Assembly: GCA_022393335.1 (NCBI GenBank) | Contig: JAJEKB010021383.1 | Coordinates: 1,214,684 to 1,278,683 of the forward strand | Length of the DNA stretch: 64,000 bases | From: Macrotrachela quadricornifera | Lineage: Eukaryota > Rotifera > Eurotatoria > Philodinida > Philodinidae | Direction of reading: 5' to 3' | Part shown: positions 22,879 to 59,174 of the stretch, one piece after another | How the letters are laid out: each line of letters begins with the position of its first letter | Numbering within the stretch: the first letter of the stretch is position 1 | Notes under the pieces: generated by a model | Seen by the model: the letters and a program-made list of their open reading frames with translations, nothing else | What the model was told of the DNA's origin: nothing | The model's database searches: none | Translations under genes and position numbers: made by a program

Positions 22879-23335
22879 TTGGTTACAAATGTAATATTTT
22901 GTATAATTAGTTGTGTTTTTAGGCTAAAACAGAAATCACATCATCTATTTATATAGCTAATAGCTACTGCTTGATTGTTTTCACTACGCAAAATGTTTAT
23001 CTTTTTTTGATATTTAAGTACTAACTTCACCTGGTTTCTGTTGACAATACTGAGAAAAATATCACAAGTAGCACTCATTCTACGGATTCGCTGACCATTT
23101 TCTGAAAGAAAATTTACTACGATTATTACTTAAAATAATTCCAATTCTGACTATAATATATCTCATAGTCCTGGATCGAAAGAAAAACGGAAAACAAGTA
23201 TCAACTCTTTAGCAACAATCGTTTTATAGAAATATTCCTACCTCTGATTCATATATAAATGATAATCGTCATTTTAAATCATTTCCTGATGGAATAAACC
23301 TTATTTCATATATCCATGTTAAAGGCTATCACTAC

Positions 23336-35098: not shown

Positions 35099-36186
35099 TC
35101 AACATAATATTGTATTTCGTGGTTTCGTTTTTATTATATTAATACTATTAATATTTGTTTGTAATTCTTCTTGTTGTTTACCTAGAAATTTATATAACGA
35201 TTTAATAAATGTCTGTCGAAATAAACGACATGTTAATGTTGAAAGATAGAATGATTTAACATTATTTAAATAATATAGATTATTCGTAAGTGAAAGGAGA
35301 AAAATTTCAATATATCTTTGTTCAATACTTTTAACATAATTTCCAGTAACTGAAAAATATGTAAACATTAGTATCCATTGAAAAGAAATACAAGCTGTTG
35401 CTATAACTTGTGAAAAAATCATTATAATTAATTGATTTCGACTTCGAGATATACCTTGACTTTGTATGCCGCCCTTTAATTAACAAAAAAAATAACTAGA
35501 AATAATTTTTAAAAAAACATTCTTACAACTCGTTGACGACTTTTTATTATATTTTGATATGTCAGTAATACAAATATAGCCATTATTAATGGTTGTAATG
35601 CACCATTAAATATAATATAAAAAATACTGGTTACTACTGTTTGTGTTGAACTGCATCCTGAAAATGGTAAAATATCATAAAATATAATTACACGTAGTGA
35701 AGTTATTCCAGTGATAACAATAGTTATGATAATCATCCATGGAACCATTTTAGGTTTATTGAGTTGACGCAATGGTGATGTCAAACTACATGTACAAGCA
35801 TATCGATCAATGACAGATAAAACTAATAAATTTATTGATAATTGAGGAACAAATCCAAGATAAAATGTATAAATTTTACATAATGAAGAATTAATTACCC
35901 ATGCCATTCTTATACTATACTTTTGATTAAGATGAATTATTAAAAGATTAGTTAAAAGATTAATAAGATCAACAAAAGAACCAGAAAGAGAATAAATACA
36001 ACATGTATTATATCGAAGTGTTGGTTGAAGAAATGTAAAAACATTTCCAAGAAAACCAATAATACCAAGAATAATGAATATAAGTGAAAGATTCATAATG
36101 AATTTCTCCATCACTAAATTCAGAACAACAATAATTGAACTTGTTGAAAATGATGTATTATTGAAAATTGTATTATTATTCGACAT
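35099..36186 (-). CDS. Rhodopsin-like (class A) G-protein-coupled receptor, two exons
   Basis: Exon 1 runs from 36186 to 35527 and exon 2 from 35473 to 35099, with a 53-bp intron (GTAAGA...AAAG). The product is 344 residues. The N-terminus has several N-x-S/T sequons. Seven hydrophobic segments follow, with TM1 at about 32-53. Cys103 opens TM3, which ends in Asp127-Arg128-Tyr129, the class A DRY motif. TM7 has N-x-x-K-S-F-Y in place of the usual NPxxY, a variant common in invertebrate orphan receptors. The ligand is unknown. It resembles the large lineage-specific receptor sets of rotifers. Confidence 0.82.
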
Positions 36187-36349
36187 TTTAATAAACTATT
36201 TTTTTGTATAAATTTTACTTTTAATATTAAAGATAAAATAAAAAATGATTATGATAATAATATATATCTTTTTTCTCACTACAAAAGTTTTATTTTAGCT
36301 TGAGGATGAAAGAGAAAAATGTAAAATAATATATTTAGAAATAAATCAA

Positions 36350-36440
36350 TAGTAGCAGAACCATAAAAAAATTCTAGGGGAAACTCGTATATTTGTAGGT
36401 GTGATGAGTCTCCTCTAGATTACTTCTGGTTCTGCCACTA
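36350..36440. mobile_element. 91-bp MITE-like palindrome
   Basis: The ends are TAGTAGCAGAACCA and TGGTTCTGCCACTA, imperfect inverted repeats. The inner arms keep matching with 'tctaggggaaactc' against 'gagtctcctctaga'. A related fragment (AGTAGCAGAACTC followed by a short inverted TTCTC/GAGAA) is seen near 40446, so the family has more than one member here. Confidence 0.6.
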
Positions 36441-39400
36441 CAAGTCAAGCGGAAATTTTCAATAAAAACACAAATATATAGCTAAATTTAATATTTCTAT
36501 CGAACAAATAGAATATTAATGTTAATAAAACACTTTGTAATTATGCGAACATTATAAAACAGTCTCACCATCCTTTCTTTTTAATTTTTGTCGAATTCAA
36601 TAGTCAACATAATATATATAAAAAAAAACAAAAAAAAATTTTTCCTGTATTAACCTTTTTAGGCCCATGACTCAGCCATTTTTTTTGTTGTTTCACTTGT
36701 TGACTATTTATTTATATACATGTTGGGTTTCTTATAATAAAAATTAAAAACGGATCTTAACAAAGTTATTTTTGATCGATGAAGGGCTATCACAAAACCA
36801 ACTTTTGGAATATCGATAAAGGTCATCCCTAAGTTGATCACAACGCGGAAAACCGAAATATTTCGGAGACTGCAAAAGGGACCTATTTCTTCAGATTCGA
36901 CGTACTACATATAGTATGGTTTTTTTCAAATTTTGTAAACTTTGAATAAGTCGTCCATACAAAAAATATTCTGAAGGAATTTTCTTCGTTAAACAAAAGA
37001 GGCTGCAGCACACACATCTATATTAAAATTATAAATATAGTAAACTCATTCATGTGATAAATGTGATAAATATTTGTAAAACCATGATAAATAGAGTATG
37101 TTTAAAGATTATAAAACTTGAAAAAAGCGTAGTATATTAGACGGCCACATATGGTGACAGACGGCTTTATAATACTACCAGAGTCGATGTATAACTCAAG
37201 TCTAGTTAAAATATCTACGGAGTATTTTCTTGTTGAAGTTCTATGCTCTAGAGTAAAAAATAATGACGAAGTATATCCTGATATATATAAAAGACGAGTT
37301 TTAGGAAATTAGCAGCAATAGGTATATTATGTTTCACATTTTAAACCCATAGCGATCGTGCTAACAGCTTTTCAAACAGCATCGATTTCTCTTGGAACCT
37401 ATGCTAGTCGTTTTTCTCAACTGGATAATTTGTGGTTATTCATAGTATACGTAGATGGTTGCTAATAGTTTCCTCTTCTGTATATAGATCTTCTAGATCG
37501 TGAACAACTTTATTAATTGAGAATCAAATACTGGACTATGTAGAACAAACACACTGTCTCCACACCAGTCTTTGATATCGTCCAGCCATTTGCTACATGG
37601 ACGACCTCTTCGGGGCTTCCCGTCTATTTTAAAGTGATAGTAGAAGATGAAACAATGATCAAATGAACGTTTAACAACAGATGACAAAGTATTCAATAAC
37701 ATATTATTGATTACGAATAAAACCAGAGTCAAATCACTCGATGCTATACATAATAGATCCAATGCTTTTCTCCCTTTGTATGTTGATTTATTATTATTTA
37801 TTTTGCCGTATCCTAATGGTTACAGTGTTGAAGTGCTCAGAAAATAAAAAACAAAATATTTCTTACTTGTTTCACTCAAATTAGCAGCAGGAATATGTAT
37901 ATGAAGAAGACTGCGTTAATATAGAGTTCACCCATTGGTAATAGATATGGTGTCTAGGTCAGTACAAGGTTTATGTAGTTATAAGGATAAACATATAGGT
38001 ATTTAGTATTATTGGCAAATATATTAGAGACGACATCCAGATAGGTAACTTGATATTTTCAGGGGTGAGATGGAAAATGATTATGAAGAAAAAGAGAAAA
38101 TAGAAGACGAATGTAGCTCGTAATACAGCAATGTCTACCCTACTCTATAGTCACATGATTGGTTTTTTGTTAGATACTTTTATATGTATTGTACGATCTG
38201 TTTTATGTAGCATGAGTTTCACTCCGCTAGGACATGTACTACCTTTCTTTTTTTTACTTCCTTCTTTTTATGTGTTTGTTCTATATTGTATCGGCTCATG
38301 TTATTAGATACTGCTAGTCATGTTCTATGTTCCTATGTAATAGCACATTATAATTCCTTAGTATACTATTACAAGAAAACTTAAAGTGAACGTATCCTCA
38401 AACTGCACCTTTGATTGTTTGGACTATAGTAACTAATTTAGTTTTTGAGAAACGAGTAGCTCAAGTACAGAAAATTGCTGTATGTTGATCGGACTCATTT
38501 TTTATTAGATCATGTTATACCATTGTTCGATATATTATTCTGTATTTTTGTTATGAAGCTAGCAAGCCAAAGAAAGTTATTAACAATTATATAATAAAAA
38601 TAGTAATCCAGTCGTATCCATTTCTTTCAATCACTTTAGAATAGGAAGATAATCAACAAGAGCAATTTTTTTTTGTGTATATGAAATGAGTCTCACTTTC
38701 CACGACCTTTTTCTTTGGTGTACTTGAAGATGTCGACTACTTCAAGGTAGAAATATCCACATACCAGTCGGATTCGGACTCTGTATTTTCCACAGATCAT
38801 TTCTTGTTAAGTTGCTGGTAGCAACGAAAAGAAGGGGAGTGAGGATAAGCAAAGAAACAAGTTCTCAAAAGTTGTGTTGATATGCTTTTATTTCGGTTAA
38901 TCCTTTTCAATTTAGTGTATGATTGCTATATATCCTCAAGAAATTTATCCACTGTAGATTACAAGGACAGTTTATCTGTCTAGGCAAATTTGAGATATTT
39001 AAAAGATTTCATCATTTCCAGTACTGATTTGTTCATTTTAATCTGTATTTCTGGTCGTTCCACTTATTAGCATAGTTCAATAGATTTTGGCATATTTGTG
39101 TATTCGCTAGTTTTATAAAAATTCAGCATTTCCCTGGTAGCTAATATATTTCAATAGAACAATTAGAGTGTTCAAGTCATCTGTAAAGAGAGGAGTTGAA
39201 AAAGCGCCGGTACATTTGACTTTAACATATACGGACTTAATGAACTGCCTTATGGTAGATCGATATGAATGTTAAAAATTTTTGATTTCTTATTGCTGAG
39301 CACTACATATGCATGTCTGTTCTGTGATATAATTGGCTGTATCTGATCATTTTACTGTTGAATGAATATTATTTAGAATAGAATAATAACATCAGTAACT

Positions 39401-39735
39401 ATTAAGAATTTGTCAAGAACGAAGATTGTTTAACTAAGATGAGATATTTTCTCTTGCAACAATCTCCGAGATTTTACTAGATTGTTAGTGCTCGTGTGTC
39501 AGCTAGTCTACTCGGTTATATGCATATCTAAACGAAATCAACTTAATCAATTCTCAATAACAATCTCTCGTAGAGTGACCAAGAATTCTTTGGAGAGAAA
39601 AATTCTGATCTTTTTTATGCATTATTCACTCTCGATACGCCTTTATTAATTATTGACAAGAAACTTTTTACAATTGCGAAAAAAGAAACCTTTGAGAAGA
39701 TAAGATGTTGATTGAATATTTACACAAGACAATGT
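36441..39735. other. Gene-poor region with a retrotransposon fragment
   Basis: There is no supported gene apart from the non-LTR fragment at 37493-37640. The stretch from about 37900 to 39500 is less AT-rich than its surroundings and may hold further eroded retroelement sequence, but I cannot read domains in it. Confidence 0.4.
37493..37640 (-). pseudogene. Tail of a non-LTR retrotransposon protein
   Basis: The minus-strand frame encodes DGKPRRGRPCSKWLDDIKDWCG. Its G-R-P-x-x-x-W-x-D-D-I-K-x-W signature recurs at the C-terminus of endonuclease/reverse-transcriptase polyproteins of animal non-LTR elements. Nothing upstream in the same frame resembles reverse transcriptase, so this is a fragment only. 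Confidence 0.6.
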
Positions 39736-41438
39736 TTAATGAAAATACAGAAAAATGTTCAAGAAACAGAAACAACAGAGGAAAAGCAGAAAAATCTTTA
39801 AAGTACAGAATTTTTCTGCTAAAATCTGGACAGATGACAGCTTTGGTTGGTGTTGTTTACAACCTTCTACATTTTCTTCTTGACGATATTTTGCTCGACG
39901 ATTAGAAAACCATATCTTAATTAAAAAAAAAGACATAAACAAGAAAAAAATCAAAAATTTTTTATACTTGAATTAATGCTTCAGATACATGTATTTCTTG
40001 TGCAAGTTTTTCACGTACACATAAATCTGGATAATGTATTTTATAAAAAGCTAAATCAAATATTTATTCTATACAAAAAAATAAACAATAAAAGTAAAAA
40101 TACCTTGTTCTAAAACATCATTTTGTTCTTGTGTAAATGATTTATTACATCGTAATTGAAAATATTCTTGTATAGTTTCATCAGTTTCATTTAAAGTGTC
40201 TTCTATAATTGATTTACTAGCATTACTTGCATCAGTTAAATCTATGAAATGAGAAAAAAAAAGAAATACCGAAGATTTAATTTTCATTACAACTGAATGA
40301 AAAAAAAATAACGTTATCAATCATGTTGAAATAAGTCTTTCTTTTTTTCTAGTTAATCTAAGAATCATCTTTTTGTTATTGTTATAATATTTAAGGGAAA
40401 AATAAAAAATCAATATTTCTGTAGGATATCGAATAGTTAAATAAGTAGCAGAACTCAATTTCTCTTCTGGAGAAATTATTTTTGATACATTTATTTTATT
40501 TATTAGAGCCGGTTGGGTCCATTTTAAGTGAAAGTTTTCATTTCGCTATTAAGTTTTTTATAATCACTGAATAATATATTTAAAATATTTGTTACCCCCT
40601 AAATTTTCATGATGTTTACATTTTGAATTTGAATCCCCATCTGTTGAATAAGTATTTGATAATGTTTGCGTATTTACTGATTTAAAACCAAATTTTCTTA
40701 AAATTCGATGTATTGATGTTACCTAAAAAAAAATTCATATATATGTATATGGTTTTATTCGTTTTCTTTAAAATAGTTTCTTAAATTACGTACATTTGGA
40801 ATATTTTCGGGATTACCAAAATTTTCTTCGATAAGACGAGAACGAATTTCCCATGCAAATATGCACGGTATTTCACGTTTATATTGTACTATTTTTTGTA
40901 CAACATCATCTGTTACTGCACCAGGTTCTAAAACTCCTGTAGCGCATGGTTTTACTGAACCTGTTGCATAATAACCTTGTAAAATGTCTTGTACACAACA
41001 AGTTGGTACTTGTAAACAACGACTTATATCACACAGACGCATGCCATTATGTGCTAGTTCAACTATACGTGTTCGTGTACTATCAGGCAATGATGAATCA
41101 TTAACAGGTAAACTTCCACGATATTTAACTTCTGAATCACCTAGGTAAAACAAAAAAGTTTGGAAGAATAACAATAATAATATTCTCATTGCATATTCAT
41201 GATTAGCAAAAAAAGAACGGTAACAACACTCGAAAATTATTGCACCGTATAAATAAAAACTGTAACAATCGGTAGTGATTGATCATTTTCTAATTTCTTA
41301 TCAGAACAACAACAAATAATTACCTTATGGGCATTTGAATTTCTATTTTTTTTTTATTAATACATATATTTGATCTGATGCTTAAAGTAAGAATAACTTA
41401 CCTTGATGCGGCATAGATAGATCATTATTAATATCCAT
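39736..41438 (-). CDS. Pax-type transcription factor: divergent paired domain plus S50 homeodomain
   Basis: A DNA-binding developmental regulator. Exons on the minus strand are 41438-41402, 41140-40794, 40722-40596, 40241-40104, 40050-39968 and 39915 onward. All junctions are GT-AG and keep one frame. Residues about 14-137 form a paired domain (LPDSTRTRIVELAHNGMRLCDISRCL..., YYATGSVKP, FAWEIRSRL, and SIHRILRKFG at the end). A linker without an obvious octapeptide follows. Residues about 198-257 form a homeodomain (FTQEQNDVLEQ, YPD, IWFSNRRAKYRQEE) with serine at homeodomain position 50, as in Pax3/7 and Pax4/6 proteins. The lack of octapeptide favours Pax4/6. The paired domain is unusually diverged near its N-terminus. 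The 3' end is uncertain: past the homeodomain the frame to 39736 turns hydrophobic, so a further splice is likely. Confidence 0.85.
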
Positions 41439-42912
41439 TGGATAGATGAACTAGAATAACAAAAATAAAGAAAGTAATATCAAAATACACAAATGTTGTG
41501 GGCAAAATTAGAATTCCATTAGATATAAATCCATGCAATCAAAACAATTAATATCTGAATAGAACAATTTTTTTTATGCAAGAATATCTAAAAGTTTCTC
41601 TTCTGACATGCGCATTATATAGATGCAGGCAGAGGTCAAGCGGTCACGTGCGAGAGGACATGGATAGAGTGGACAAAGATAGAAGGTCAGTGCTAGGTGA
41701 AGAGGTCACAATACAGAGAGGATATAATATAGGGCAAATGAGCATAAATGTCAATGACCGTTACAATAACCATCGGTAACAATAAATTCCTATGTTTAGA
41801 TGCTTCTGAATAAAAAATCTATTCTACTCAGATTCGTTTTGATTGGATGAATTTTGCTTCATTCGAGTCCTAATTCTGCCTAGGCAATATCTAGTGAAAA
41901 TAAAAATTTCAACTTTGCTTACAACAACCTCGTCAAATAAGTATCTATTAATTGGTGATATTATAATCAAAACAATTACTTATAGTTAACTTATTATTTA
42001 AAAAAAAACGTTATTTTTATGAAATAGAAAAAGACAAATTATTTAGAAAATGTGAAATTAAGTTTTATTGATACTATGTATATTTGTCGAGCAATTCAAT
42101 CAATCCTATTTTTGTAGCTAATCAAAAGTAGATCTCTAAAATCTTACGTGTGGATTTATACGTCATATAAGTATATAGTCAGAACAGATTCTGCCATATG
42201 TGGGCATGGCCACGCGTTACGGAATTTCTTTGATTCTTCTATGAATCTTGGTATTCATTTCATATATGTAATACTTGAATTCAACTTTCAAGTTTGACAC
42301 TACTGAAAGTTACAGTATTTTTTATATCAGAGCGCAGTGTTCAAGAGATCTATCTATTTTGATTATAACACCATCAATTAATAGATAATTATTTGATATT
42401 TAGTTCATCTGAAGTGACTTCGACAATATTTGTTGTCAAAGTTATAACTTCGTCGGTCAGCGTAACTTCGATACGACAATGAAAAGAAATTTGAGAAGCA
42501 CAATGATGGTTTTGTTTATCTTATTAGTCTGAAATTTGATGTAAATTAGAGAAAATGAAAGATATCCACAAAAAGCCATGATGTAGTAATCGTGTTTGTA
42601 TTGAAAAGTTAAATAATTTTATTTTATTTTATTGTTGGTTTATATGTGAAAATATGCAGTTTTTCACGAACTATCTTCTAATGCTAAAATACTTTTGGGA
42701 GACCGACGCATTGATGTACTTTTAGGCAAAAATATAAAAAGTTCTCAGAAAAATGATGAAAAAGTAGATTTTCTTCTTTTCTCTTAAACAGGAGGGCACG
42801 GTTAATACTACAATTATTCTACCTTTGTCATTGATTTTATAGGAATGCTTTTCATTGAAACAATCAAGGCGAAAGAATTTGCTGTTGCCATCAAATTTGT
42901 TTCTCTTGACTG
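41439..42912. other. Intergenic region, probably includes the Pax gene promoter
   Basis: No gene is supported. A purine-rich patch at about 41620-41740 differs in composition from its surroundings and may be part of an old insertion. The rest is AT-rich. Confidence 0.4.
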
Positions 42913-43734
42913 TTATTGCCTAATATTCTCATAGTAACCAACACATCTTCGAACATCACCTGCAGATCCTTCCATTTCTTCGAGGTTGTGATCCGCGAAC
43001 TTACGCTTCGTTTGGCTGGTTGAACGTTCTCTTGGATCACGTTTCAAATTCTCGAATAGTTTGAAACGTCGAAGGCATGTATAGTATGTTGATGACTGAT
43101 CAGATATGTCTATATCTTGCTTTCCCTTGTTGTAATCGAGGACAACTTGTGCCTTCATAACGCACTCATTGGTTTTATTAGTTGTTTTGATATCTATCAA
43201 AGTTGCTGAATGTGATGGCTTTGTAGATATCATCAAAACATCTCGTTTGAACTTTTTCTGAATCACTCCATGCCCCAATTCTATCAGAGACATACTTACA
43301 AAGAAATTGTCAACTACTACAGTTCGATGAAATTTCAGAAGGTCATCTGCCAAATCGAGTACAACAGCTTGAGCGTGTCCAAGACTAGCCGTTGGATTCT
43401 GCTTACCAGTATAAACCATAAAATTATAGATGTATCCGTTAGTAGCCGCCAGCTTAGATATCTTGACTTCATATCTGTGCATTTTTCTGGGAATATATTA
43501 TTTAAACAAAAGTCTCCCTTTCCATGGTACCATTGTTTCGTCAATAGAAATAACTGAGTCAAAAACGTAAATTGGCTTGAATTTAGGTCTCAATAAATCT
43601 AAAAGTGGTCTCAGCTTAAACAACCTATCTTGATCTGCATACCCTTCTTGGTTGTTTGAGAAATGAAGAAATTTGAGAAATAATTCAAATCTATCTCTTG
43701 GCATCGTATTTTGAATGACTTCAGATCCAAACAA
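42913..43734 (-). pseudogene. Dead piggyBac-type transposase fragment
   Basis: Two overlapping minus-strand frames carry piggyBac transposase blocks: an N-terminal piece (43734-43498) with RFELFLKFLHFSNN and SIDETMVPWKGRL, containing the first catalytic Asp, and a second (43482-42913) with VVVDNFFVSMSL, containing the second Asp, then DYNKGKQDIDISDQ, containing a later conserved Asp. The frames are out of phase with a frameshift near 43490. A stop lies just upstream of the first piece, and sequence between the second and third motifs looks shortened. It is therefore inactive. A TTAA-flanked MITE at 57240-57470 could be mobilised by a relative. Confidence 0.85.
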
Positions 43735-44090
43735 CTCTACCGTCTAAATATATACTTGATTCAACAATGATTTGATAGTTGATATATTTCCACTTAACAA
43801 TTCTAAGAATGAATATTAAAATCCAATTTCTTGTCTTTCAAAACTTGAGGATTGATTTTAATGAAAATTGGAAGTCAGATTCAGATTTTCTATTTGAAAT
43901 TCTCTTGGGCAAAGTTTTATTCAAATAAATAATTATATATATGTAAAGAAAAATCAAGATTAAAAGTGTCTAAAATAATCTAAATCAACAAGTGTGAATC
44001 GAACAAAATATTTAATTTTTTTGCTTGACTACTATTCATTTATTATATATTCTAGAAACAATGATAGATAAAAATAAATGTCTTTGAAAT
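43735..44090. other. Short AT-rich spacer
   Basis: No feature is seen between the piggyBac relic and the stop of the receptor gene on the minus strand. Confidence 0.4.
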
Positions 44091-45044
44091 TCAAACTTTA
44101 GTATCTGATTGATCACTTTGCAATTTTTGAGCGGTAACTGAAGAATATTTTGACGTGGATGCCTCATTAGATGACGTAAAAAATGGCCAAATAATTTCTC
44201 TTATTTGTTTGTAGAGTAATAAATTAGCCAACATGGCGGATCCGGTAGCAGCTGAACTACCCATAAAACTAAGATGAAGTGCATAGGGTGGAGCTTGCCA
44301 TTGTCCACCGGTCAACACTGTACGAAAGAAGAAAACAAGAAAAATCAATCCGACACTGAGTAATAAAATAACTGGCAAAGCCAAACGAGCCAAGACTCGT
44401 TGTTCTCTGCGAATGCGTCTGTCAGAATTGATTTGTAATCGACACATTTGAGTTTCACGAGTCACATATCGAAGAATCCAATAGGAACAGATAATTTGAA
44501 GTGTCAATGGAATAAAATAAAGAGAGACTGCTGGATATAGAACACCGATTACATCATTTAATGCAATGTAACAAGCTTTTGCAGTTGGATAATATGGAAA
44601 TCTATTGTCTATTAGTAATGGTAATAATACTGTTAGACAAATCGAAAATTGTATCGAAGCCAAGAATATGAAGAAATATCGATTCTGCCAGTTACGACGT
44701 TGAAAAAAGACGGTAACAAATAGACGATGTAATGTTTGCAATGCAGTTGCCTGAAATATGTATAAACCACCGGCTGTAAACAAATAACCACGAATTGAAC
44801 AAAGTCGATCTTGTTTAGAATTTTTCATCATATAAATAACATGAAAAAACATTGAAATACAAGCAAGAAGTCCTCCAATGTTTAAATTAATAGCAAGTAG
44901 TAAAGCAAGATTCTGACGAAGTTCATGTCGTGTAATCACAACTAATATAAAAATAATACTGCTGATTAAACCAATAACACTAAAACTGAGTATAAGTAAT
45001 TCAATAGGAATCTTCCACCAGAACATGTTTATAAAATCTACCAA
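44091..45044 (-). CDS. Orphan class A-like G-protein-coupled receptor, intronless
   Basis: A single frame of 317 residues with seven hydrophobic segments (about 14-36, 44-68, 88-110, 125-147, 160-190, 215-240, 256-280). A cysteine precedes TM3 (DRLCSIRGY) and another lies in the second extracellular loop (KACYIALND), allowing the usual disulfide. The DRY motif at the end of TM3 is replaced by LHRLF, and TM7 has no NPxxY. The C-terminal tail is serine-rich and could be phosphorylated. It is unlike the other receptor in this window, and the ligand is unknown. The start is the first Met, upstream of TM1. Confidence 0.75.
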   Translation of the reverse strand: MVDFINMFWWKIPIELLILSFSVIGLISSIIFILVVITRHELRQNLALLLAINLNIGGLLACISMFFHVIYMMKNSKQDRLCSIRGYLFTAGGLYIFQATALQTLHRLFVTVFFQRRNWQNRYFFIFLASIQFSICLTVLLPLLIDNRFPYYPTAKACYIALNDVIGVLYPAVSLYFIPLTLQIICSYWILRYVTRETQMCRLQINSDRRIRREQRVLARLALPVILLLSVGLIFLVFFFRTVLTGGQWQAPPYALHLSFMGSSAATGSAMLANLLLYKQIREIIWPFFTSSNEASTSKYSSVTAQKLQSDQSDTKV

Positions 45045-45963
45045 ATTGTATTCATCAGTTATAAAAGATTTCTATCAAAAAACTAATAAAAAAAAGAAAG
45101 TTATAAATATGTTGATCGAAGACAACTGTAAATCTAATAAAAACTATCACGTATATACACAACAATATGGTAGTTTAACTTTCCTTTTATTAAAAAAAGA
45201 GAATCTGACGAAGCGCAAACAAATGACGTTCAATGAATAAAAGCATTAATACATTTGTTTACTCGACTATAAAGCATAAATGTGCATGCCTTTTATCTTC
45301 GCGTGAAGTTATTATAAAGGCTTCTTTTTTCTAACGAATATCCTTAACATCACGCAATCTTTTAAAAAAAATTAAAATCTTCATCTACTTCATCCATTTT
45401 GCAGGCGATTTACATATATACCAAAAAGCTTTAAAACGAGCGAGTAAATGCAAATTAGTAGATATCTCTTTTATAGTTCCGATCAGATTGAATTTCATTT
45501 GAAAATCATTTAAAAATCTCTATAAGTTACAATCTGTTAAACATCCATTTGTAACGATATATGAGTCAAAATAAATTGAATTTCGAAGTCGATAAATCTA
45601 GCTACAGGAAGTTTAAATGTCATATATCCTGAGTTAATATGTGGAAGATACGAGCACAACAACACAAAAAGAGGTCAAAAAACCCATTAAGTACTCACAA
45701 AATAGTATGGGAGAATAGTGATTGCTTGAAAACGAAGATATCTAACAAATGTATACTCATGAGTGTATGTTTCATCGAAACAAATTTACTTTGATTTCAA
45801 TCTTATAATCAAATTCTTTTGTGTCTTTATTCGTATTTTAGTGCGATGAGTGAAAGTGAGATTCTTAGAGGATTAATTTCAAATCGAATAATGATTAAGA
45901 AATACTCGTAAATGATTATCTGATGTTTCATATTGAAAAATAAAAAATAAAAATAGAGAATGT
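45045..45963. other. Intergenic region, nothing recognised
   Basis: AT-rich spacer between the receptor gene and the tRNA-like sequence. It is the likely promoter side of the receptor. No element can be assigned. Confidence 0.4.
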
Positions 45964-46039
45964 TGCCGGGACCTTGGAGTCGAACCAAGAGACCTGTCGA
46001 CCGGATGTCGACCGCTCTACCAGCTGAGCTACCCCGACA
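45964..46039 (-). tRNA. tRNA-like sequence, probably a pseudogene or tRNA-derived
   Basis: On the minus strand, 76 bases contain a textbook A box (TAGCTCAGCTGGTAGAGC, giving a D-arm with GCTC/GAGC stem) and B box (GGTTCGACTCC, with CTTGG/CCAAG T-stem). There is a 5-bp anticodon stem (GTCGA/TCGAC) and terminal arms TGTCGGG/CCCGGCA that pair with one G-T. T-runs suited to Pol III termination follow. Against a working tRNA, the anticodon loop CATCCGG lacks the invariant U33, and extra bases sit beside the acceptor stem. It may be an odd tRNA or a tRNA-derived relic, so I assign no anticodon. Confidence 0.55.
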
Positions 46040-49035
46040 ATTTTACATCGTTATCTTTTCACTTTCTTTTCTGTCCTCTCTTATATTCGCACACAAACTT
46101 TTATTTCTGAAAGAAAAACACTATGAATTTAATATCTATTTCTATGATTCTATTATCTTTTGCTTTAAAAGGCCTACCATATATCAATATTATACTGTTG
46201 AGACAAAATCATAAGATCTTCCTGTACGACCGACCTATAGTAAAACAAATGTTCTACTAAGGATTAGTAAAAGTAATCACGTTTGTAAGTAAAATCATAT
46301 TAAAAATAAATTGGTTTACTCTCTTAAGTATTGATGGTTTTTATTAAGTTTATATGGTTGAAAGCTGCTTAGTTTTCTACTGTTCGGTATGAATGATGAA
46401 AAGAACGATATTGCTCTAGAGAATATCATGAAAAAAGGATGCTTCTAACGAGCAAAATGTCAGAAAATGTATCGCTCGTGTCATTGAATAATCTGTCAAC
46501 ATTAATACTCGTCTACTCATCTAATATCTTCGCATGCAGGTAATTATTGTCATTATAATGGACAATAATTACATGAGAATACAATACATGGTTACATAGA
46601 CTGAATATTAACTTCGTACGAACCCTCGATCAACCATAAAATATAATTTTTAGAATAGAAATTTAAAAACTGTTCAACCTTTATATAGTAAATGATTTTA
46701 CCATATTTAAGGATAAAAATAGTTTTTATTTTCTATTTCTTCTAATGATAAATAATGGAAAAATGCACTTACACTGCTTTGTAGTATGCTTTGTAAGCTA
46801 TCAATCACAATATAAAATAATTCAAAAAAGGTAGATAGATAAATTAGTATCTGTAGAAAAAGATGTGTAGGTTTTTTTTTAATATAGTTATATATAAAGT
46901 TGAAAAGAGTTTCATGCACTTTAATAATATATTAAAAATATCAAGTAAAAAATTTTTTTTTCTCGGAAGAAATATAAAATAGAAAAGGAAAAAAAGAAAG
47001 ATATGATCTAGAAGATATATTTGAAAAAGAAAAAATGATAAAACTATACCTAGCTATTGTAAAAGTATAAGATGTCTAATTTAATTTGCACTATAAGCAT
47101 ATTTTCAAAAATTGTTTAGTCATTTTGAAAATAAATGATAAGACAATATATAAATACGATTTGACTATAAATCAAGGTAAAAGAATAAAATTTTATTTTA
47201 TTTTTTTCAATTTTAGAGTTAAGTGAAGTGTACAATTTATTGCACTTATAACAAATAATAAATGAAGAAAAATAAAATAATTTTTTTTTCTAATTTTATA
47301 GTAAAATGTTTTTTTTCATTTATCACTGCTTTATAAATTATATAGAAATTACAAAAAAAAATTTATTCTTTGTCTAAATTGATATTCAAGTGTCTCATTT
47401 AGTTGTCATGATTATATAAAACTATATATAAATAAAAGAAAATTTTTTATTATTTTTTCTAATCTGATATAAAGTATCTACTTCATATGTCACTTTTATA
47501 GAATTAATAAATATAATATAAGAAAATTTTAATTATTTTTCTAAATTTATAACATAGTACCTAGCTCATATACAGATGGCACAAAAATTATTCTTACTAT
47601 TTTGATTACAATAACATTTTTCATTCTTTTTGATTTCAAAATATTTAATTACAAATTCATTAGATACAGAAAAGAATAAGTGGCGTGTTCCTAATGTATT
47701 TTTGTGATGCTCATGTATAATATATCTAATTATACCTTTAATTTAAAGTTAAAGGTTTTGTATCATTTATAGACAAGTGATAAGTATAGGGTTATCCGAA
47801 ACTATGTGATCAAAATGCGGAAATTAGATCTTTTATATAAGCAAAGATATAATTTAGTATCCTATATGATGTCATACAGTATAAATAGAGGTTGAAGTAA
47901 CTGAAATGAACCTGAAGATAAATCAAAGGTATAATCACATATTTCATATGTGAGTACTATAACGTATTATTTGTACTTTTCTATATCGAATGACTTTATA
48001 ATTGAGTACTTTGAAATAAACAAAAATGTCATCATCATTAAAATTGTACGAATAATTTTTGCGATATTTGTATATTAAATCTTAACACGATAGATATTTA
48101 ACAGGCAAAATTTCAAGGGAACAAAAAAGATGGCTTAAATATCTAATCTATTTTCCAATCACACCAATGCAATATGTCTAATCTATATTTCAAACTTTCT
48201 ACAGGTTCATAAACAATCTAAATACTATTTAAAATAATTTTTGTTTCGATTTCCTTTCATTTTAATACCAATATAAAAGTGTATATGATAGAACATGGAA
48301 CTATCAAGAGTGAATAAGACTAATATTAAAATATGAAAACAAAATATAGCTGCTAGTGCTGATTGTAGAAAGATAAAATTTGACTATGAACTTATGGTTA
48401 ATCTCCTTCTTCAGAATAGACGGACAGCATCAGTATATACAGAAAAGATATACTACAACAGTCCTTTTAAATTTTGTTCTATAAAAAAATTTAAGTACAA
48501 AAATAAATCAAACCCAATTGAAATTTAAAGAAAAGCTGTTTTTTTTGCATATTATGATGTAAAAATATTAAAATTATTTCTAATCCATTTTATTAATAAC
48601 TTTTCTGTTATTCTTATTAGAGAAAAATATTAATATCATATCAATTAACGTTACTAAATGTCGATATCATAACGTAATAGACTGTATTTAATAATGAATT
48701 ATGGAGAAAAAAAGGATATGATTTTATATTTTTTTTTGTTTTTTGAAAATCATTTCATTTGTATAAATTAGTTGGGAAAGTAATTGAAAGGTCTGTATAA
48801 GATGAAGTTTGAATTATAAATCTGCGATGTTATATTGTCACATAAACATTTTCTTTTTAATTATTTTAATCTTTATGATGTTAAAAAAATTTTACATTAC
48901 TTTCAAAGGTATCTGAAATCTTAATCTTTTAAAATATTTGAATAGAAAAAAGAAAATAGCGTACATGTAGTCTAAATTATTTCATTGAAGAGTTTTTAAT
49001 CATCTGCTCAACTCTTGAGTTTATAAGCGTTGCTC
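46040..49035. other. AT-rich intergenic region left of the terpene-synthase array
   Basis: No gene is supported over about 3 kb. It contains a degenerate tandem repeat at 47270-47590 and otherwise low-complexity AT-rich DNA. Confidence 0.45.
47270..47590. repeat. Degenerate tandem repeat, about four units of about 80 bp
   Basis: Each unit starts with 'aaaatttttt' or similar, then 'ttctaa', 'tata', a 'gt..ctca..t' word and 'tttata.aa.tata'. Four diverged units can be aligned by eye. No function is evident. Confidence 0.5.
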
Positions 49036-50834
49036 AACATATCGATTCATTTCTAGCTGGCGTCATTTATTCAATGATTTCATGCAGTTTTCCATATCAA
49101 TTTCTTCAAACGGATGTAAATTATGTCAAAATTTCGATTTCTTTCATACAATAAATGAGAAGAAAGACAACAAAAGAAAAAGACTGAAATTTTGTTTTTT
49201 TTTCTTTTCTCATTTCTACTGCATAATACAAATAAATAAAGGTGAAAAACAAACTTGAGTCATTATTTAGTATGACGGTGAAATAGAATCGCTTATATAA
49301 TAGTGTAAACAAGAGAAAGAAAACTGAAAAACTATACATATTGAAAAAAACTAACGTGGGTATAGTTCAAAGGTTAATACCAATGAAAATGAATATGTTA
49401 AATCTACTTTTCTTTTTTTTTAAAATCGAATCACCGTAAATGAAGTAACAACCGTTTAGAAAACGATATTTAAAAGTAGAATATATGTCTTTATTATAAT
49501 CTGATGATTATTAAAACGGATAGATATATGAAATCTGTACTGTATAAAAAGATTCATAAGGAAAGCTGACTTATCTTTCATTTTCTTAAGATTGTGGTAG
49601 TTTCAAGTCATTAACACTCGTTTTTTCTTTCAAAAACTTGAAAATTCCAGTTCATTCAACATAAATTAAGTTGTATATTTAGAGAAGATATTTTTATACA
49701 ATAATTACATAGTTTAAATTTACCTATAAGTAGTTATTGATCAACGCCTTCAGTTATGAATGAGTAAGCATACAGCTCGTTCTGCATCGACAAAATTAGT
49801 ATATTCGTTTTTTTTCTTAAAAGAAAGGAAAAGGTAAAATAGTTTATGTATAAGAACGATGTATGAATTAGCCATCTACATGCTACTTTTAGTTTTACCT
49901 TATAGCAACATGAACAGGTATGACTTTATCTTATTCTTTCTCTTTCTTTTCAATGTAATACAGTACCTCCTTTGAATGAATTTGTCTGTGTATAGACACG
50001 TACTAATTACTGATACGAATGATTTAAAACGATGAATTTATTTCTAAATATAATATTCTATAAAAGATATGAGAAAATATACGGATTTTTGCTTTAAATC
50101 ATCTCACCATCTATGCGTTGCACGATGAAGACTGAAATGAGATGGTTAGTAGGATCTAATGTAGGATATATATTTTCACTAAGAACCTAAAAAAGAATCT
50201 TTAATGAATTTATCAGAGTTGGATTCGCGTCATGAAAATATAATCCATATCAAACATTGATATCTATTATATCAGAAATTGAGCATCTCCAATATTTTTC
50301 AGCGTTGGTTTAATCTCAACTTCAATCTCAGCATAAGGTTTATGGTACCTCATCAAATTAAATCTTGAAGATGAGGGTGAAAGACGCCTGTTAAAAAGTC
50401 AAAATTTGGATCTTTTTGGCTGTATAGAATTAATTTGAAAAGTAGAAAGATAGAAACTGCTACAACAACATTAATTTCACATATCTAACTAGTTAAATCT
50501 ATTGCATCTTTGCAGATCAAAGAAAAATCAATAAGTTCAAGTATTAATAGTATAAGTTTTAGATATGGTAGATACTAGCTCCTGTTGAGAGTACTATAGA
50601 ACCTATGTGATATAGACTGATCGAAAAGCAGTCATTTTTGTTTGATCAATACGACACAGAAAGCAACTACTTTAGCATACTAAAAATCTTTTTCTTCATA
50701 TTTTGTCAAAAATTGGTCCATTTTGAAAAGAAAAAGTATAACTAGAAAATAAGCGATGTTATATAAATTAAAAAATATTTTCTAAGCTTTTAATTTATTT
50801 ATGAATTTAAAATTTTTACTATTGTTCTATGTAG

Positions 50835-52327
50835 TGATGTGATTCAATTGCTATCTACAGCACATGAACAATGCTGTTCACATGATGTAGATCAGAATAC
50901 CGTATTAAATGAAAAAATATATCCTATTTCAGCAACAGATTGTGTTAATACAATTGAACAATATGATGGAATTGAAGAATTGTTATCTAGTTCAACAACA
51001 AATATGCAACGATTTGGAGAAATTCACTATAAAGACATTCGATATAATTTAATTAATATTTCTCTCGTTTATCCAAAACATTGGTGTCCTGAATTATTAT
51101 CTACGCAATCATTGCATCATATACACTGCAATAAGGAGAGAGAAGAAGAAATACAAGATTGGTTTGTAACAGCATTAGGTAATTGCTTGTTACCATCAAT
51201 GAAACAAAAATTATCCCTATTAAGAACAGCTGAATGGTCTGCATCGTTACAACCTTATGCATCAGATAATTATATTAAATTAATGGCACAAGCTTTAGCT
51301 ATATTTATTCTACTTGATGATTATGTAGTCGAAAAAAACGCTGCAATACAAAAAAATATAACATCAGAAGACTTAATACTATTTGCTGATATATGGAAAT
51401 TAGCATTTCAACGAAAAAAATGGTTATCAAGAAGAAAGTCAAAATTTAGCAATGAAAATACATGATATTGTATTGAGAACGAATATTAATTTTTTAGAAC
51501 CATTTTTTCATATGTGGTCTTCTATTGCTGATAATTATGTCAAATTAGGTGCAGATGAAATATGGTGTAATAGAATGTTTAATGCAATAAAAGAATGGTT
51601 CGTATTAGCAGTTAGAGAAGTAATACAAAATGAATATATGAAACGATCATTGGCATCAACAGATTCATTAGAAGATATTCCTGTTAAGCTAACTTCATAT
51701 GATCATACACCTTTTCAAGGGAAGAAAACTGTTAATTTAAGTGGTATGTCTTTATTAGAATTTCTTTTGCAACGAAGAATAAGAACAATTGGTGTAAGAA
51801 TAATGTCATTAATGATAGAACAATCATATGGTTTTAATTTATCTTCTTTCGATTGTTTATTACGTCCATTAATTGATATACTTTCAATAATAACAGCATT
51901 AGCGAATGAATTATTTGGTATGGCAAGAGATTTAAAAGGTGAATCAAATTTTTCATTAACTTATCGACATATATATAATTGTTCATTAGAAGAAAGTATT
52001 GATTTTACAGTTACATTACATGATCTTGCTATAGAATTATTTGATCAAAAAGCAGAGGAAATCCTTCATTCGTTAACATCTTCTCCTTCACAAGATCAAA
52101 TATCAAGTTTTATAGATTGTTTACGTATATTAGCTTATGGTTATGCACACTGGCATCATAGAGCAGGTCGATATGAGACTCTTATTGCAGTAGATGATCC
52201 TTATAAACAAATATTCGTATTTTCCGTTGCTGATGGAACAAATCAACGCTATAATGCCTTACAAGACATATTGCAACGATATAAAAAGCATGCAATCAAT
52301 AAACAGAAAGAAGACTTCAAATGTTAG
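50835..52327 (+). pseudogene. Terpene synthase copy A, first exon lost and frameshifted
   Basis: This aligns along its whole length with exon 2 of the intact copy at 57499-58990. The splice acceptor (TTCTATGTAG, ending 50834) is kept. The first exon found upstream of the intact copy is absent, because the upstream flank is deleted. A run of seven A at 51414-51420, six in the other copy, shifts the frame near residue 235 of the aligned protein and splits it into frames 50839-51465 and 51452-52327. The aspartate-rich DDYVVE motif (from 51316) lies before the shift. The metal triad after it reads NELFGMARD, with glycine where the other copy has serine. The loss of exon 1 does not depend on base-calling, so a pseudogene is the better reading even if the A-run is a sequencing error. 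Confidence 0.85.
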
Positions 52328-53404: not shown

Positions 53405-54779
53405 TTGTACATATCGTTTAGTTTCTAGCTGCCGTCATTTATTCAATGATTTCAAGATATTCGCCAAAATTCACATTCAATTCTGATACTATTTCATACA
53501 GACTTATAAATCCATTTCACCATGAGTAACTTCTTCCTCAGAGGTTCAAAGCTTAAATTGCATTTTACAAAAATTGTTATCCAAATTACTAACATTACTC
53601 AATGAGTTCATGCACTTTTCTATATCAATTTCTTCAAACGGATGTAAATTATCTCAATATTTCGATTTCTTTCATATAATAAATGAGAAGAAAAACAACA
53701 AAAGAAAAAGATTGAAATTTTGTTTTTTTTTCTTTTCTCATTTCTACTGCATAATACAAATAAATAAAGTTGAAAAACAAACTGGAGTCATTATTTAGTA
53801 TGACGGTGAAATAGAATCGCTTATGTAATAGTGTAAACAAGAGAAAGAAAACTGAAAAGCAATACATATTGAAAAGAACTAACGTGGGTATAGTTCAAAG
53901 GTTGATACCCATGAAAATGAATATGTTAAATCTACTTTTCTTTTTATTAAAATCGAATCATCGTGAATGAAGTAACAACTGTTTAGAAAACAATATCTCA
54001 ATATAGAATACATGTCTTTATTATAATCTGATGGTTATTAAAACGAATAGATATATGAAATCTGTACTGTATAAAAAGATTCATTAGGAAAGCTGACTCA
54101 TCTTTCATTTTCTTAAGATTGTGATAGTTTCAAGTAATTAACACTCGTTTTTTCTTTCTAAACCTTGAAAATTCCAGTTCATTCAACATAACTTAAGTTG
54201 TATATTTAGAGAAGATATTTTTATACAATAATTACGTAGTTTGAATTTACATATAAGTAGTTACTGATCAACGCCTTCAGTTATGAATGAGTAAGCATAT
54301 AGCTCGTTCTGCATCGACAAAATTAGTATATTCGTTTTTTTTTTCTTAAAAGAAATGAGAAGATAGAATGGCTTAGGTATAAAAAGCATATACGACTTAG
54401 CCATCTACATGCTACTTTTAGTTTTACTTTCAGCAACATGAACAGGTATGACGTTATCTTATTCTTTCTCTTTCTTTTCAATGTAATACAGTACATCCTT
54501 TGAATGAATTTGTCCGTGTATAAACACGTACTAATTATTGATACGAAATGATTTTAAACGATGAATTTATTTCTAAGTATAATACTCTATAAAAAATATA
54601 GGGAAATATACGAATTTTTGTTTTAAATAGCTCTCACCGTCGATTCTTCGTATGATGCAGGCCGAAACCAGAAGGCTATTGATATCTACCAGAGTTGGAT
54701 TCGCGTCATGAAAATATTACCCATATCAAACATTGATATCTATTATATCAGAAATTGAGCATCTCCAACATTTTTCAGT

Positions 54780-55700
54780 GTTGGCTTAATTTCAGTTTCA
54801 ATCTCAGCAGAAGTTTTAATGTACTTCACATAATTGAAATCCAGTATTTCCTTGACTCTTTCCATTTCTGACTACTAAATGAATCATAAACAAAGTTAAC
54901 AGAGAATTTTTCTCTAGCACCAGGTATATGTTAGTGATCATCTGAGATTGGATTATCCTAACAGCGAAGTGAGCCATAAGCTGTCTTAAACTTCTTGACA
55001 CATTAAAGATTCGAAGTCCTCTATTGAGTCCTTATAAAATCCTTCTAATTCAATATTTTCAATGATAGTTTACATTTGTAACCTTGTCTTAGGTAAGATT
55101 TTGTTACTAATTTTATTAATTTCGTCTCTTATGTGAATGCAGTTAAAAGCACATTATACACATGAAATCGAAAAAATTTGGTTTATAACAAAAGTAATCC
55201 TCTTTATATAGTATAATGAATCGCTCAGGGAGCGCTGTATATAGGACCTAAAATAGCTATTCTTTTTACCTTAAAAAAAACAATCAGCAAAAATCTGTCC
55301 ATATCATACAATTAAAACAAAAAAGGGAAATAAATTCTTTAGTTCTTTCATATGTCTTCTAAACTCATTTATTTGTGTTAATTTTTGTCTTGGAATAGAG
55401 GCAGTAGATTCAGATGGAATTAAATCATGACTCTAATGTGTCAGAGAGTTTTCAAAATATTGTCGTTTTTTCTTCCTTAGTACCATGGATACATCTTATC
55501 TTTCCTCCCAAAGTTTTTAGGCCTTAAGTTAGCTTATTAAAAGTCTGATGGATATTCAGTCAGATCGAATCAAATCACGAGAAAACTGAACTGTAACCAT
55601 CATTGAGAGGCGTTTGAAAAACATCATCCAAATTTATATACAGAAAAATGAATTAAAGCTAATTAAAAAGAATAGACGCTAAATATTTTTAGTATGACTT
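54780..55700 (-). pseudogene. Eroded coding sequence in the array flank, also in unit C
   Basis: On the minus strand, several separated stretches read like protein. One gives MERVKEILDFNYVKYIKTSA... ending at a TAA near 54759. Others include 'IRDEINKISNKILPKTRLQ' and 'SESTASIPRQKLTQINEF'. Stops and phase changes separate them. One 49-bp interval (about 54915-54963) has intron-like GT...CACTAAC...CTAG signals. Unit C (61860-62760) keeps the same layout with the same kinds of interruptions. I do not recognise the protein. It may be a dead gene or transposase duplicated with the array. Confidence 0.35.
55141..55480. other. Unusually conserved patch between units B and C
   Basis: By eye I count about six differences across roughly 335 bases against 62251-62590, while adjoining flank differs by something like one base in ten. 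The patch includes a small stem (CGCTC...GAGCG) and, on the minus strand, a TATATAAAG word. No long open frame spans it. Recent gene conversion or a functional non-coding element would both fit. Confidence 0.5.
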
Positions 55701-56539
55701 CAGCGACGTAGTTCTATGGCAGAAGTTTGAATTGATCAAGTCTGAAAACATTAAAAGCTTGAACAAGATTTTCCATATAAATTTTACCATGAAATGATGA
55801 AATTAGAATACAAAAGTAGTTTTATCCATATTGATAAATCAGTGAACACGTTAAATTGAACATGTAAAAGATATAAATGTCTCATGTTGCATAGTTCTTC
55901 TCAATTAAACTTCTCACTCATCACGTATTTTAGGTTTGATCATTTTTTGATATTCTGAGGACAAAATAATCCATCTCAAAAGTTACAACTCGATTATTTA
56001 TACTCACATACCCATGAACCTATTCTTCATAAAAATATGCAATTAAACAACTTCACTAAGTTTTGAAATCCATGATATGCTATGAATCGATGTTATTTAT
56101 AGTCTGTTGCTTAGTATAGAGAATTGTGTCTTATTAATATTGGTTAAGTCGAATTTTGTGAGTCGGTGTTATTCTTCACTAGTTTAAATTTCAATATTAT
56201 ACACATTAGAGTTTTAATATGTAAATAAAATATGAATGTTAAAACGTCAAAATCCGGATCTTTTTTACTGTATAGAATTAGTGTGAAAAGTAGATAAATG
56301 AGAATTGCCACAACAGCAATAATTTCACATTTTTTATTATCTTTTTTGATTTTCTACTTTTAGACATTAAAAAAGCATTTATTACTCATTTTTAAAACAA
56401 TCTCTCAACGACTTAACAACTTGCCAATCATTTCTGTCAAAATTTTCGTCTTAAAAATCTTACTGTGTTAATCATTTGAAAGAATTTTCAATCTTCATTT
56501 AGTTGCTGTCCATTTGTGTAAAACTTAAATAACAAAAAG

Positions 56540-58990
56540 ATGTATAAAATATGTAAATCTATTAGTAAAACAATTTTTAATAATCCAAAACAAACTAATT
56601 ATACTAAACAATGGTGGTCATATCGAAATATGTCGTAAGTTTTACAAAAGAATTTTTATTTTAATTATTTTGGAAATATATATTTCTTATTGTTATCATT
56701 TTATTCATATCACATATGTTTTACTAATATAATGATAATAAAATTTAAATAAGAACTATTTTTCTGTAAAACATTACTAATGTAAAACAGATTAAATGGC
56801 TATGCTTTACATTTCAATTTTCAATCACTTAATATGTTATATTGAAAAAACAAAATACATTACAAGATGTTATGTGAAAAGCTCTGTAACCTATAAAATA
56901 AATATTATTTTAATTGTCTATTTTTTGTTTTTAGAAAAAGTAAAATTCTATGTGATAAGTTTTCATCATGCCAAAAAAACTCTTTTAATAATTTGTTTCT
57001 GTAAATTATAGAGCTTTCCATATTGCATCTTCTAGGATATTTGGCTTTTTTTGATAAAACACATCTTTTAATAGAAAGATAACATAAGAAGGGACGAATT
57101 TACTTTTTACCAAAAAAAGCTTTTCTTCACATTGTTGAAAATTGGCTCATTTTGAAAACAAAACGTACAACTAGTAAATAAGCGATGTTCCATAATTTTT
57201 AAAAAGTTTTCTAGGCTTTCAATTTATTTATGAATTTAATCCCTTCAGGACGGGATTACTTTTCACATAAAAAAATTTAGCGAGACCTCCTCCATAACCT
57301 GTATTCAATTTATTAAAAATTTCACTCATCTTGTTCTCATCAGCTTTCTAGCAGCCGCTATTTCGTTTATAAATGAAATAAACGCTTAAGGTATTATGTG
57401 AAGCATACCTAAGTCTCTTATGAGTCCATCAATATCATAACGTACATATACGTGATCCGTCCCGAAGGGGTTAAAATTTCTATTATTTTTCTATATAGTG
57501 ACGCGATTCAATTACTATCTACAGCACATAGACAATGTCGTCAACATGCTGAAGATCAAAATACAGTATTACATGAAAAAATATATTCTATTTCTGCAAC
57601 AGATTGCGTTCATCAAATCGAACAATATGATAGAATTGAAGAATTATTATATAGTTCAACAACACACATGCAACAAATTGGAGAAACTCATTATAAAAAC
57701 ACTCGATACAATTTGATTAATATTTCTATCATTTATCCGAAACATTGGTGTTCTACATTATTATCTACACCATCATTGTATCATAAACATCAGAATAAGC
57801 AAAGAGAAGAAACAATAGAAGATTGGTATCTATCAGCATTAGGTAATTGTTTATTACCATCAATGAAACAAAAATTATCTCTTGTAAGACCAGCTGAATG
57901 GTCTGCATCACTACAACCTTATGCAGCAGATAATTATATTAAATTAATGGCACAATCTTTGGCTATATTTATTCTACTTGATGATTATGTAGTGGAAAAA
58001 AAAGCTGCAATACAAAAGAATATAACATTAGAAGACTTATTACTATTTGCGGATATATGGAAATTAGCATTTCAACGAAAAAATGGTTATCAAGAAGAAA
58101 GTCAAAATTTAGCTATGAAAATACATGGTATTGCATTAAGAACGAATATTAGTTTATTAGAACCATGTTTTCATATATGGACTTCTATTTGTGATAATTT
58201 TGTTAAATTAGGTGCAGATGAAATATGGTGTAATAGAATGTCTAATGCAATAAAAGAATGGTTTGTATTAGCAGTTAGAGAAGCAATACAAAATGAATAT
58301 ATGAAACGATCATTGGCATTAACAGATTCATTAGAAGATATTCCTATTAAGTTAACTCCATACGATTATGTACCTTTTCAAAGAAAAAAAATTGTTAATA
58401 TGAGTGGTATGTCTTTATTAGAATTTCTTATGCAACGAAGAATAAGAACAATAGGTGTATCAATAATGTCACTAATGATGGAACAATCATATGGTTTTAA
58501 CTTATCTTCTTTTGATTGTTTATTACGTCCATTAATTGATATAGTTTCAATGATAACAGCATTAGCGAATGAATTATTTAGTATGGGAAAAGATTTAAAA
58601 GGTGAACCAAATTTTTCATTAACTTATCGAGAAATATTTAATTGTTCATTGAAAGAAAGTATTGATTTCACAGTTACATTACATGATCTTGCTATAGAAT
58701 TATTTGATCAAAAAGCAGAGGAAATCCTTGATTCCTTAACATCTTCTCCTTCACAAGATGAAGTATCAAGTTTTATAAATTGTTTACGTATATTAGCTTA
58801 TGGTTATGGATATTGGCATCAAAAATCAGGTCGATATAAGTCTCTTATTGCAGTGGATGATCCTTATAAACAAATATTTTTATTTTCTATTGCTGATGGA
58901 ACAAATCAACGCTATAATGCCTTACAGAATATATTGCAACGATATAAAAAGCATTCAATAAATAAACAGAAAGTACATTTCAAATGCTAA
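56540..58990 (+). CDS. Class I terpene synthase-like enzyme, intact copy B
   Basis: Predicted to ionise a prenyl diphosphate with Mg2+ and cyclise or rearrange it to a terpene. Exon 1 (56540-56634) starts at the first ATG after an in-frame stop at 56519-56521. The intron 56635-57498 is GTAAGT...TATATAG, and exon 2 (57499-58990) joins in frame to give 528 residues. The aspartate-rich motif DDYVVE at 193-198 (DDxxxE, as in geosmin synthase DDHFLE) lies in a hydrophobic helix. RRIRTIG at 345-351 fits the diphosphate-sensor region. NELFSMGKD at 389-397 fits the NSE triad N-D/E-L-x-S-x-x-x-E/D. WHQKSGRY ends in Arg477-Tyr478, the C-terminal RY pair of microbial enzymes. The DD-to-NSE spacing (196) and N-terminus are longer than in bacterial enzymes, with an insertion before RR. 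No targeting peptide is obvious. Animal terpene synthases are few, so transfer or deep divergence is likely. Product unknown. Confidence 0.82.
57240..57470. mobile_element. piggyBac-type MITE in the terpene-synthase intron
   Basis: A 231-bp element is bordered by TTAA on both sides (57236-57239 and 57471-57474). It has terminal inverted repeats TCCCTTCAGGACGGGAT and ATCCGTCCCGAAGGGG. The same intron position in copy A reads through one TTAA without the insert, a natural empty site. No coding capacity. TTAA targets and C-rich ends are typical of piggyBac elements, and a dead transposase of that family lies at 42913-43734. Confidence 0.85.
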
Positions 58991-59099
58991 TATATATATA
59001 TGTATATTTCGATATGAAAAAAGTTATTTTCTTAAATGCTATTCTAAACATTTGTAAATAATATTAAAACAAATATAAATCCAAGATATTGTAATATCT

Positions 59100-59174
59100 T
59101 CTATATATATATATAAAGAAGAAAGTTTGTTTGTGAATCTGTCTGTTCTTCATGTATTTGGGCGCGGTACGAGC
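59100..59174. mobile_element. Left part of the older Helitron-like remnant, unit B
   Basis: TCTATATATATATATAAAGAAG followed by 'tttgtttgtgaatctgtctgt' matches the left ends at 52473 and 52879. Its continuation is displaced to 60548 by the hAT-like insertion, so the two pieces at 59100-59174 and 60548-60838 were once contiguous. Confidence 0.6.

Follow-up and report, generated by a model that had tools for sequence, protein, structure and literature searches.

A putative microbial-type class I terpene synthase gene and other terpene synthase families in a bdelloid-like rotifer genome

Gene structure and genomic setting

A terpene synthase gene and its surroundings were evaluated in a stretch of rotifer DNA of 64,000 nucleotides, which is called the window here. 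The gene runs on the plus strand from an ATG at 56540 to a stop codon ending at 58990, and its two exons encode a product of 528 residues. The features of the locus are given below.

50836..52324, plus strand: broken tandem paralogue
56540..56634, plus strand: exon 1, with the start codon, the N-terminal 31 residues and two bases
56635..57498, plus strand: intron, GTAAGT..TATATAG (GT..AG)
57499..58990, plus strand: exon 2, with the terpene synthase domain and the stop codon
57980..57997, plus strand: DDYVVE acid-rich metal motif (DDxxxE), residues 193-198
58436..58456, plus strand: RRIRTIG block, beginning at residue 345
58568..58594, plus strand: NSE motif NELFSMGKD, residues 389-397
58814..58837, plus strand: WHQKSGRY motif, its C-terminal RY being residues 477-478

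A spliced gene for a protein of this length had been proposed from the letters alone (the sequence-only reading), and the comparison of copies bore it out. The donor GTAAGTTT and the acceptor ..CTATATAG were common to the window gene, a copy on contig C4411 and a downstream copy (C4677), and the bases of exon 1 were identical at 93/95 and 91/95 positions in these two other copies. The N-terminus of a Rotaria protein (P0002, 530 aa) resembled that of the window protein, with 12 of 33 positions equal in an ungapped comparison. Hence, the gene model was backed by the recurrence of exon 1 and its splice sites and by the similar Rotaria N-terminus. The peptide encoded by exon 1 was basic and acid-free (6 K/R and 0 D/E in 31 residues); it is presequence-like by charge alone and could represent a mitochondrial presequence.

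The contig that contains the window measures 2.4 Mb, and the assembly 450 Mb. C4411 was identified as the colinear second haplotype, which matched window positions 33665-49082 and 53409-59134 at 93-95% identity and carried at least one gene copy at the colinear place; the sequence is N from about 3.6 kb into L009 onward, and further copies are possible there. The window contig held three tandem copies, two inside the window and one just past its end. The first of the three was broken: its open sequence is divided between 50794-51462 and 51404-52324, two stretches that overlap but differ in frame. It was 78-79% identical, and an ungapped scan over the preceding 1.5 kb recognised no exon 1. A copy on a further contig, C4504, was 46% identical, and no other match of at least 150 bases to the window was found within the 20 kb compared there. 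The gene thus has copies on several contigs. The dN/dS values were 0.50-0.78 among the close copies and 0.55-0.62 against the C4504 copy, which suggests weak constraint on the family.

The two GPCR-looking ORFs nearby matched nothing in Pfam at E<=0.001, so that the animal neighbours invoked by the sequence-only reading are supported by other features; the animal context was upheld by the long contig and its colinear haplotype. Other neighbours were also recorded. An FMO-like monooxygenase (12823-14034) and an iron-containing alcohol dehydrogenase (16481-17623) lie on the same strand, about 40 kb from the gene, and might conceivably take part in terpenoid tailoring. The minus strand carries an ADP-ribosyltransferase and TPR-repeat protein (20998-22923, a stretch with a short N run), a Paired-box/HTH transposase-like ORF (40758-41282) and a DDE_Tnp_1_7 transposase fragment (42916-43497), which is presumably of the piggyBac type.

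Family membership, predicted fold and alternative explanations

The DDxxxE motif, the RR-x-R-T-x-G block, the NSE-like triad and the C-terminal RY announced by the sequence-only reading were all present, in that order. The window protein was aligned with eight relatives (alignment A1, nine members), and D193, D194, E198, N389, D397, W471 and R477 were invariant in 9/9. According to counts made by eye, the middle NSE ligand was S in 3/9, including the window protein, and G in 6/9; the RY pair had R in 9/9 and Y in 7/9, with RF in the other two. One arginine of the RRIRTIG block, which we take to be the helix G arginine region, was invariant in a mixed alignment of 10 rows.

That reading had also called for a search with the Pfam model Terpene_syn_C_2, and it had named a best match to a different alpha-helical family as a ground for doubt. 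The sole Pfam-A family matched by exon 2 at E<=10 was this very model (PF19086, E 1e-7, 32.4 bits against a curated cut-off of 23.7), and the assignment to the microbial-type class I terpene synthases was thereby supported. All nine A1 members matched PF19086 at E<=1; the C4504 copy reached 18.7 bits, which is under the cut-off. The polyprenyl synthetase family PF00348 was not matched by exon 2 at E<=10, and it was absent from the three families that the nine members matched at E<=1. The NCBIfam models listed for A1 were terpene cyclases, all far under their own cut-offs, except for a histidine-kinase model in 2/9. The lowest E among them (2.5e-8) belonged to f2_encap_cargo2, for which the window protein scored 30.4 bits against a cut-off of 400.

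A PDB search with the window protein as a single sequence returned nothing significant (best E 0.035 for a nitrite reductase, then 0.1 for a sesquiterpene cyclase). The same search with the family profile returned 20 distinct chains at E<=1, the best at 0.0011, and all were named terpene synthases or cyclases, or variants of SVS, presumably spiroviolene synthase. In hhalign, the family was matched to 20 prokaryotic terpene synthases (19 bacterial and one archaeal) at 97.9% (E 6e-13, 310 columns), and its DD, NSE and RY motifs aligned at the sequence level with their counterparts in the bacterial enzymes. The value was 26% against the second rotifer family described below (5 rows), 9% against the third (3 rows) and 1.3% against GGPPS-type domains (3 rows), all three figures being partly lowered by the thin profiles.

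A special kinship with 2-methylisoborneol (2-MIB) synthases was also considered. It was hinted at by the DDxxxD/E spacing and by f2_encap_cargo2, a model for family 2 encapsulin cargo cyclases which we take to include these enzymes. In size-matched hhalign comparisons of four rows each from the same prokaryotic set, the MIB-type rows gave 92.7% and the others 96.7%, which points the other way, and the idea was dropped.

The AlphaFold model built with bacterial terpene synthases in the alignment had a pLDDT of 70.3 and a pTM of 0.74. All 50 Foldseek rows and all 50 VIA rows listed for it were terpene synthases, some of them ancestral or mutant, with a structural alignment (VIA) identity of 11-18%. 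A model from six rotifer rows only was uninformative (pLDDT 39), and its Foldseek list was set aside as not meaningful. Modelling thus failed without bacterial rows, and the better model carries a bias in favour of the class I fold. The window protein is predicted to adopt the all-alpha class I fold; a different fold, another ground for doubt in the sequence-only reading, did not emerge, although it was only with bacterial rows in the alignment that the class I fold appeared. The insertion noted earlier between DD and NSE corresponds to about residues 303-335 (exon-2 residues 271-303) and was disordered in the model (pLDDT <50).

A search among about 5.8 billion proteins returned five clusters, all named Rotaria, and it is these homologues that suggest a bdelloid source; the search depends on shared 5-residue words, and distant donors could escape it. 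The mixed alignment returned just two Rotaria rows. A tblastn search of plasmids gave six weak records (E 0.07 to 9), and in each of the five examined the motifs read as those of a terpene synthase; four were actinobacterial (one so annotated) and one was haloarchaeal. In the latter (NZ_CP071308.1, L019:589-2010), the C-terminal part of an 'SRPBCC protein' gene reads as a terpene synthase and adjoins a polyprenyl synthetase. No donor clade for the window family was found in these protein and plasmid searches.

The window gene probably encodes a microbial-type class I terpene synthase that reached a bdelloid-like rotifer lineage by horizontal transfer and was domesticated there; domestication is suggested because the gene has an intron, has been duplicated and keeps a conserved frame. 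Class I terpene synthases ionise a prenyl diphosphate with three Mg ions, and cyclisation or quenching follows. As in the family at large, the DDxxxE and NSE motifs would hold these ions, and the diphosphate, gripped by the RY motif and the effector arginine, would depart from a linear prenyl chain in the class I pocket. Cyclisation or quenching of the carbocation would then yield a small terpene, which would probably be used in chemical defence or signalling. The points counted against this explanation were the null PDB search with a single sequence, the bias of the model, the weak constraint, the NSE glycine in 6/9 members, the hhalign values of 26% and 9% and the searches that found no donor clade.

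The microbial type of the enzyme could also reflect contaminating microbial DNA in the assembly. Such an origin is extremely improbable, and the earlier argument against it held: the intron is retained in three copies, the 2.4-Mb contig has a colinear second haplotype, the gene GC of 0.28 lies inside the window range of 0.24-0.38, and homologues occur in Rotaria-named records. It is also very unlikely that the gene is a decaying or non-catalytic relic, as the broken tandem copy and a dN/dS as high as 0.78 might suggest. The listed motif residues are invariant in 9/9, and about 490 codons remain open at a dS of 0.7 from the C4504 copy. In a rough neutral simulation at matching distances, 8 to 28 stops were expected on average, and stop-free frames were obtained in 0/2000 cases at that distance and in 1/2000 at a dS of 0.09.

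An enzyme of class I fold that turned from cyclisation to prenyltransfer onto a small molecule, like the N-prenyltransferases DabA and KabA, was judged unlikely. DsKabA and DabA were among the Foldseek matches of a poor first model, aligned over 106-108 columns at a non-significant E of 1.4-3.3, and terpene synthases were listed with them. The change from S to G in the NSE motif of 6/9 members, the weak constraint, and the long N-terminus and insertion of the window protein would fit such a shift. However, the family retains the DDxxxE and NSE metal motifs together with the arginine block and the R of the RY pair, and the 50 VIA rows listed for the better model were terpene synthases, a comparison in which the fold alone cannot separate the two activities.

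Other terpene synthase families and a candidate chimera

Searched with PF19086, the genome gave 22 matches at 17 loci, each of them exceeding the cut-off; 14 control genomes gave no match. Adding the C4504 copy brings the terpene synthase loci to 18, several of which are haplotype or duplicate pairs. According to our own reading of the sequences, they sort into at least three distinct families. The window family has five loci. The second family has nine, in which exon 1 carries the acid-rich motif and ends inside the NSE motif, with an intron that splits N|D in 9/9. The third family has three single-exon loci, C4683 (L039), C4640 (L040) and C1374 (L041), with 53-62 bits to Pfam TRI5, the trichodiene-synthase family; the PDB entries nearest to the one member searched were longiborneol synthase, SydA and trichodiene synthase. 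A partial locus, C4555 (L042), has its exons split and matched PF19086 at 29.5 bits. For the second-family loci C5280 and C1139, an origin from contaminating DNA is less easily excluded, because their contigs measure only 17 and 20 kb; both carry the N|D intron. The origins of the second and third families were judged from PDB and Pfam scores.

Two second-family loci, C4980 (L032:3160-6085, plus strand) and C2477 (L031), had six exons and five GT-AG introns, which join into one open frame of 688 aa each. The frame comprises an N-terminal cyclase, a 38-residue linker and a C-terminal geranylgeranyl-diphosphate synthase (GGPPS), the prenyltransferase (PT) part; it is predicted from genomic sequence, with linker exons picked by hand for an open frame. 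At C948 (L033), the frame was open to the end of the stretch fetched (616 residues). At C896 (L034), it was open through the first PT exon and ended a few codons past it (496 residues), the second PT exon lying 1.4 kb further on. C1139 had a stop in exon 1 of the frame. The linker exons were in phase in four copies, one measuring 58 nt in all and the other 56, 56, 56 and 41 nt, and the intron between them varied from 334 to 801 nt. The dN/dS values were 0.39-1.7 in the linker exons (few sites), 0.21-0.26 in the PT and 0.26-0.42 in the cyclase, which suggests that the linker is little constrained and the PT well constrained.

In PDB scores, the cyclase reached 139 bits with AcCop4 (Antrodia) and 125 with Copu9 (Coniophora), compared with 80 bits for the best identifiable bacterial chain (9m25, Streptomyces) and 26 for the fungal prenyltransferase-terpene synthase (PTTS) 7wij; it thus appears nearest to mushroom sesquiterpene synthases. 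The PT reached 306 bits with chains of stand-alone GGPPS, presumably from human and other animals, up to 255 bits with the PT domains of copalyl-diphosphate synthases, presumably fungal, and up to 202 with fungal PTTS. By these scores, descent from fungal PTTS sequences was found for neither domain. Moreover, the PT and the genome's separate GGPPS gene are 55-56% identical and have in common one intron, alike in position and phase; a further intron is present in the separate gene but not in the fused domain. The simplest history would be the fusion of a cyclase of foreign origin with the GGPPS that the animal already had, and the frames at C4980, C2477, C948 and C896 probably encode an animal-made bifunctional chimeric synthase. 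It is possible that they instead hold two separate neighbouring genes, a cyclase and a GGPPS.

Several cis-prenyltransferases lie near terpene synthase loci. One, at C4504:51472-52296 (L013:5938-6762, PF01255 at 144.8 bits), is 3.2 kb upstream of the window-family copy on the same strand. Its scores with plant and bacterial enzymes exceed those with DHDDS, and nothing closely similar to it occurs elsewhere in the genome, where four further matches show 28-33% identity. This hints at Z-configured substrates. Two others, DHDDS-like by eye (C4286:397720-398370, L097, and C4631:1798887-1799537), lie 6.5-6.8 kb from second-family synthases, which may be coincidence. A chance estimate for such neighbours was post hoc and counted two DHDDS-like types as independent, although they seem to have arisen from a single native gene by duplication, and it is given no weight here.

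Significance and comparison with known systems

Taken together, the loci point to a terpenome in this rotifer that has more than one origin and includes a probable home-made bifunctional synthase. In its full form, the case for a multi-family terpenome with at least three acquisitions of class I terpene synthases, a self-built cyclase/GGPPS fusion convergent with fungal PTTSs and the possible recruitment of cis-prenyltransferases is slightly favoured. Insects are among the few animal lineages known to have terpene synthases. If at least three distinct families exist in a rotifer, one more phylum would join these lineages, which include octocorals and sponges according to PMC12685057. In PMC11258130, bdelloids are described as raising horizontally acquired NRPS/PKS clusters against a fungal pathogen; the string 'terpen' is absent from its main text. 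Alongside these clusters, terpene chemistry would become an aspect of bdelloid biology that can be tested. If the chimera of a fungal-type cyclase and a host GGPPS is true, a PTTS-like design would have evolved twice, once in an animal, through a traceable fusion. In open-licence PMC texts, no paper that names both bdelloids and a terpene synthase was found, and the three that name rotifers and a terpene synthase were, by title and start of abstract, not on rotifer enzymes.

The window protein shares the domain PF19086, the motif order and the predicted fold with bacterial and fungal monofunctional class I enzymes such as selinadiene, pentalenene and trichobrasilenol synthases. In contrast to them, it has about 100 extra N-terminal residues (the VIA and hhalign alignments start at ~102 and 110) and an insertion of roughly 35-40 residues (by eye) before the arginine block, and its gene is spliced and animal-encoded. 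The IDS-type terpene synthases of insects make terpenes and descend from prenyl diphosphate synthases, whereas the window protein matches PF19086 without PF00348. Octocorals and sponges have animal-encoded class I terpene cyclases (PMC12685057), and the rotifer protein resembles these in being a class I enzyme encoded by an animal. The fungal chimeric PTTSs, which were stated to occur "only in fungi" (PMC8307374), consist of an N-terminal cyclase, a linker and a C-terminal prenyltransferase, as described for fusicoccadiene synthase (PaFS) in PMC8190136. The second rotifer family, and not the window gene, has the same layout in one predicted frame; its cyclase appears nearest to mushroom sesquiterpene synthases and its PT nearest to stand-alone GGPPS, unlike the fungal PTTSs.
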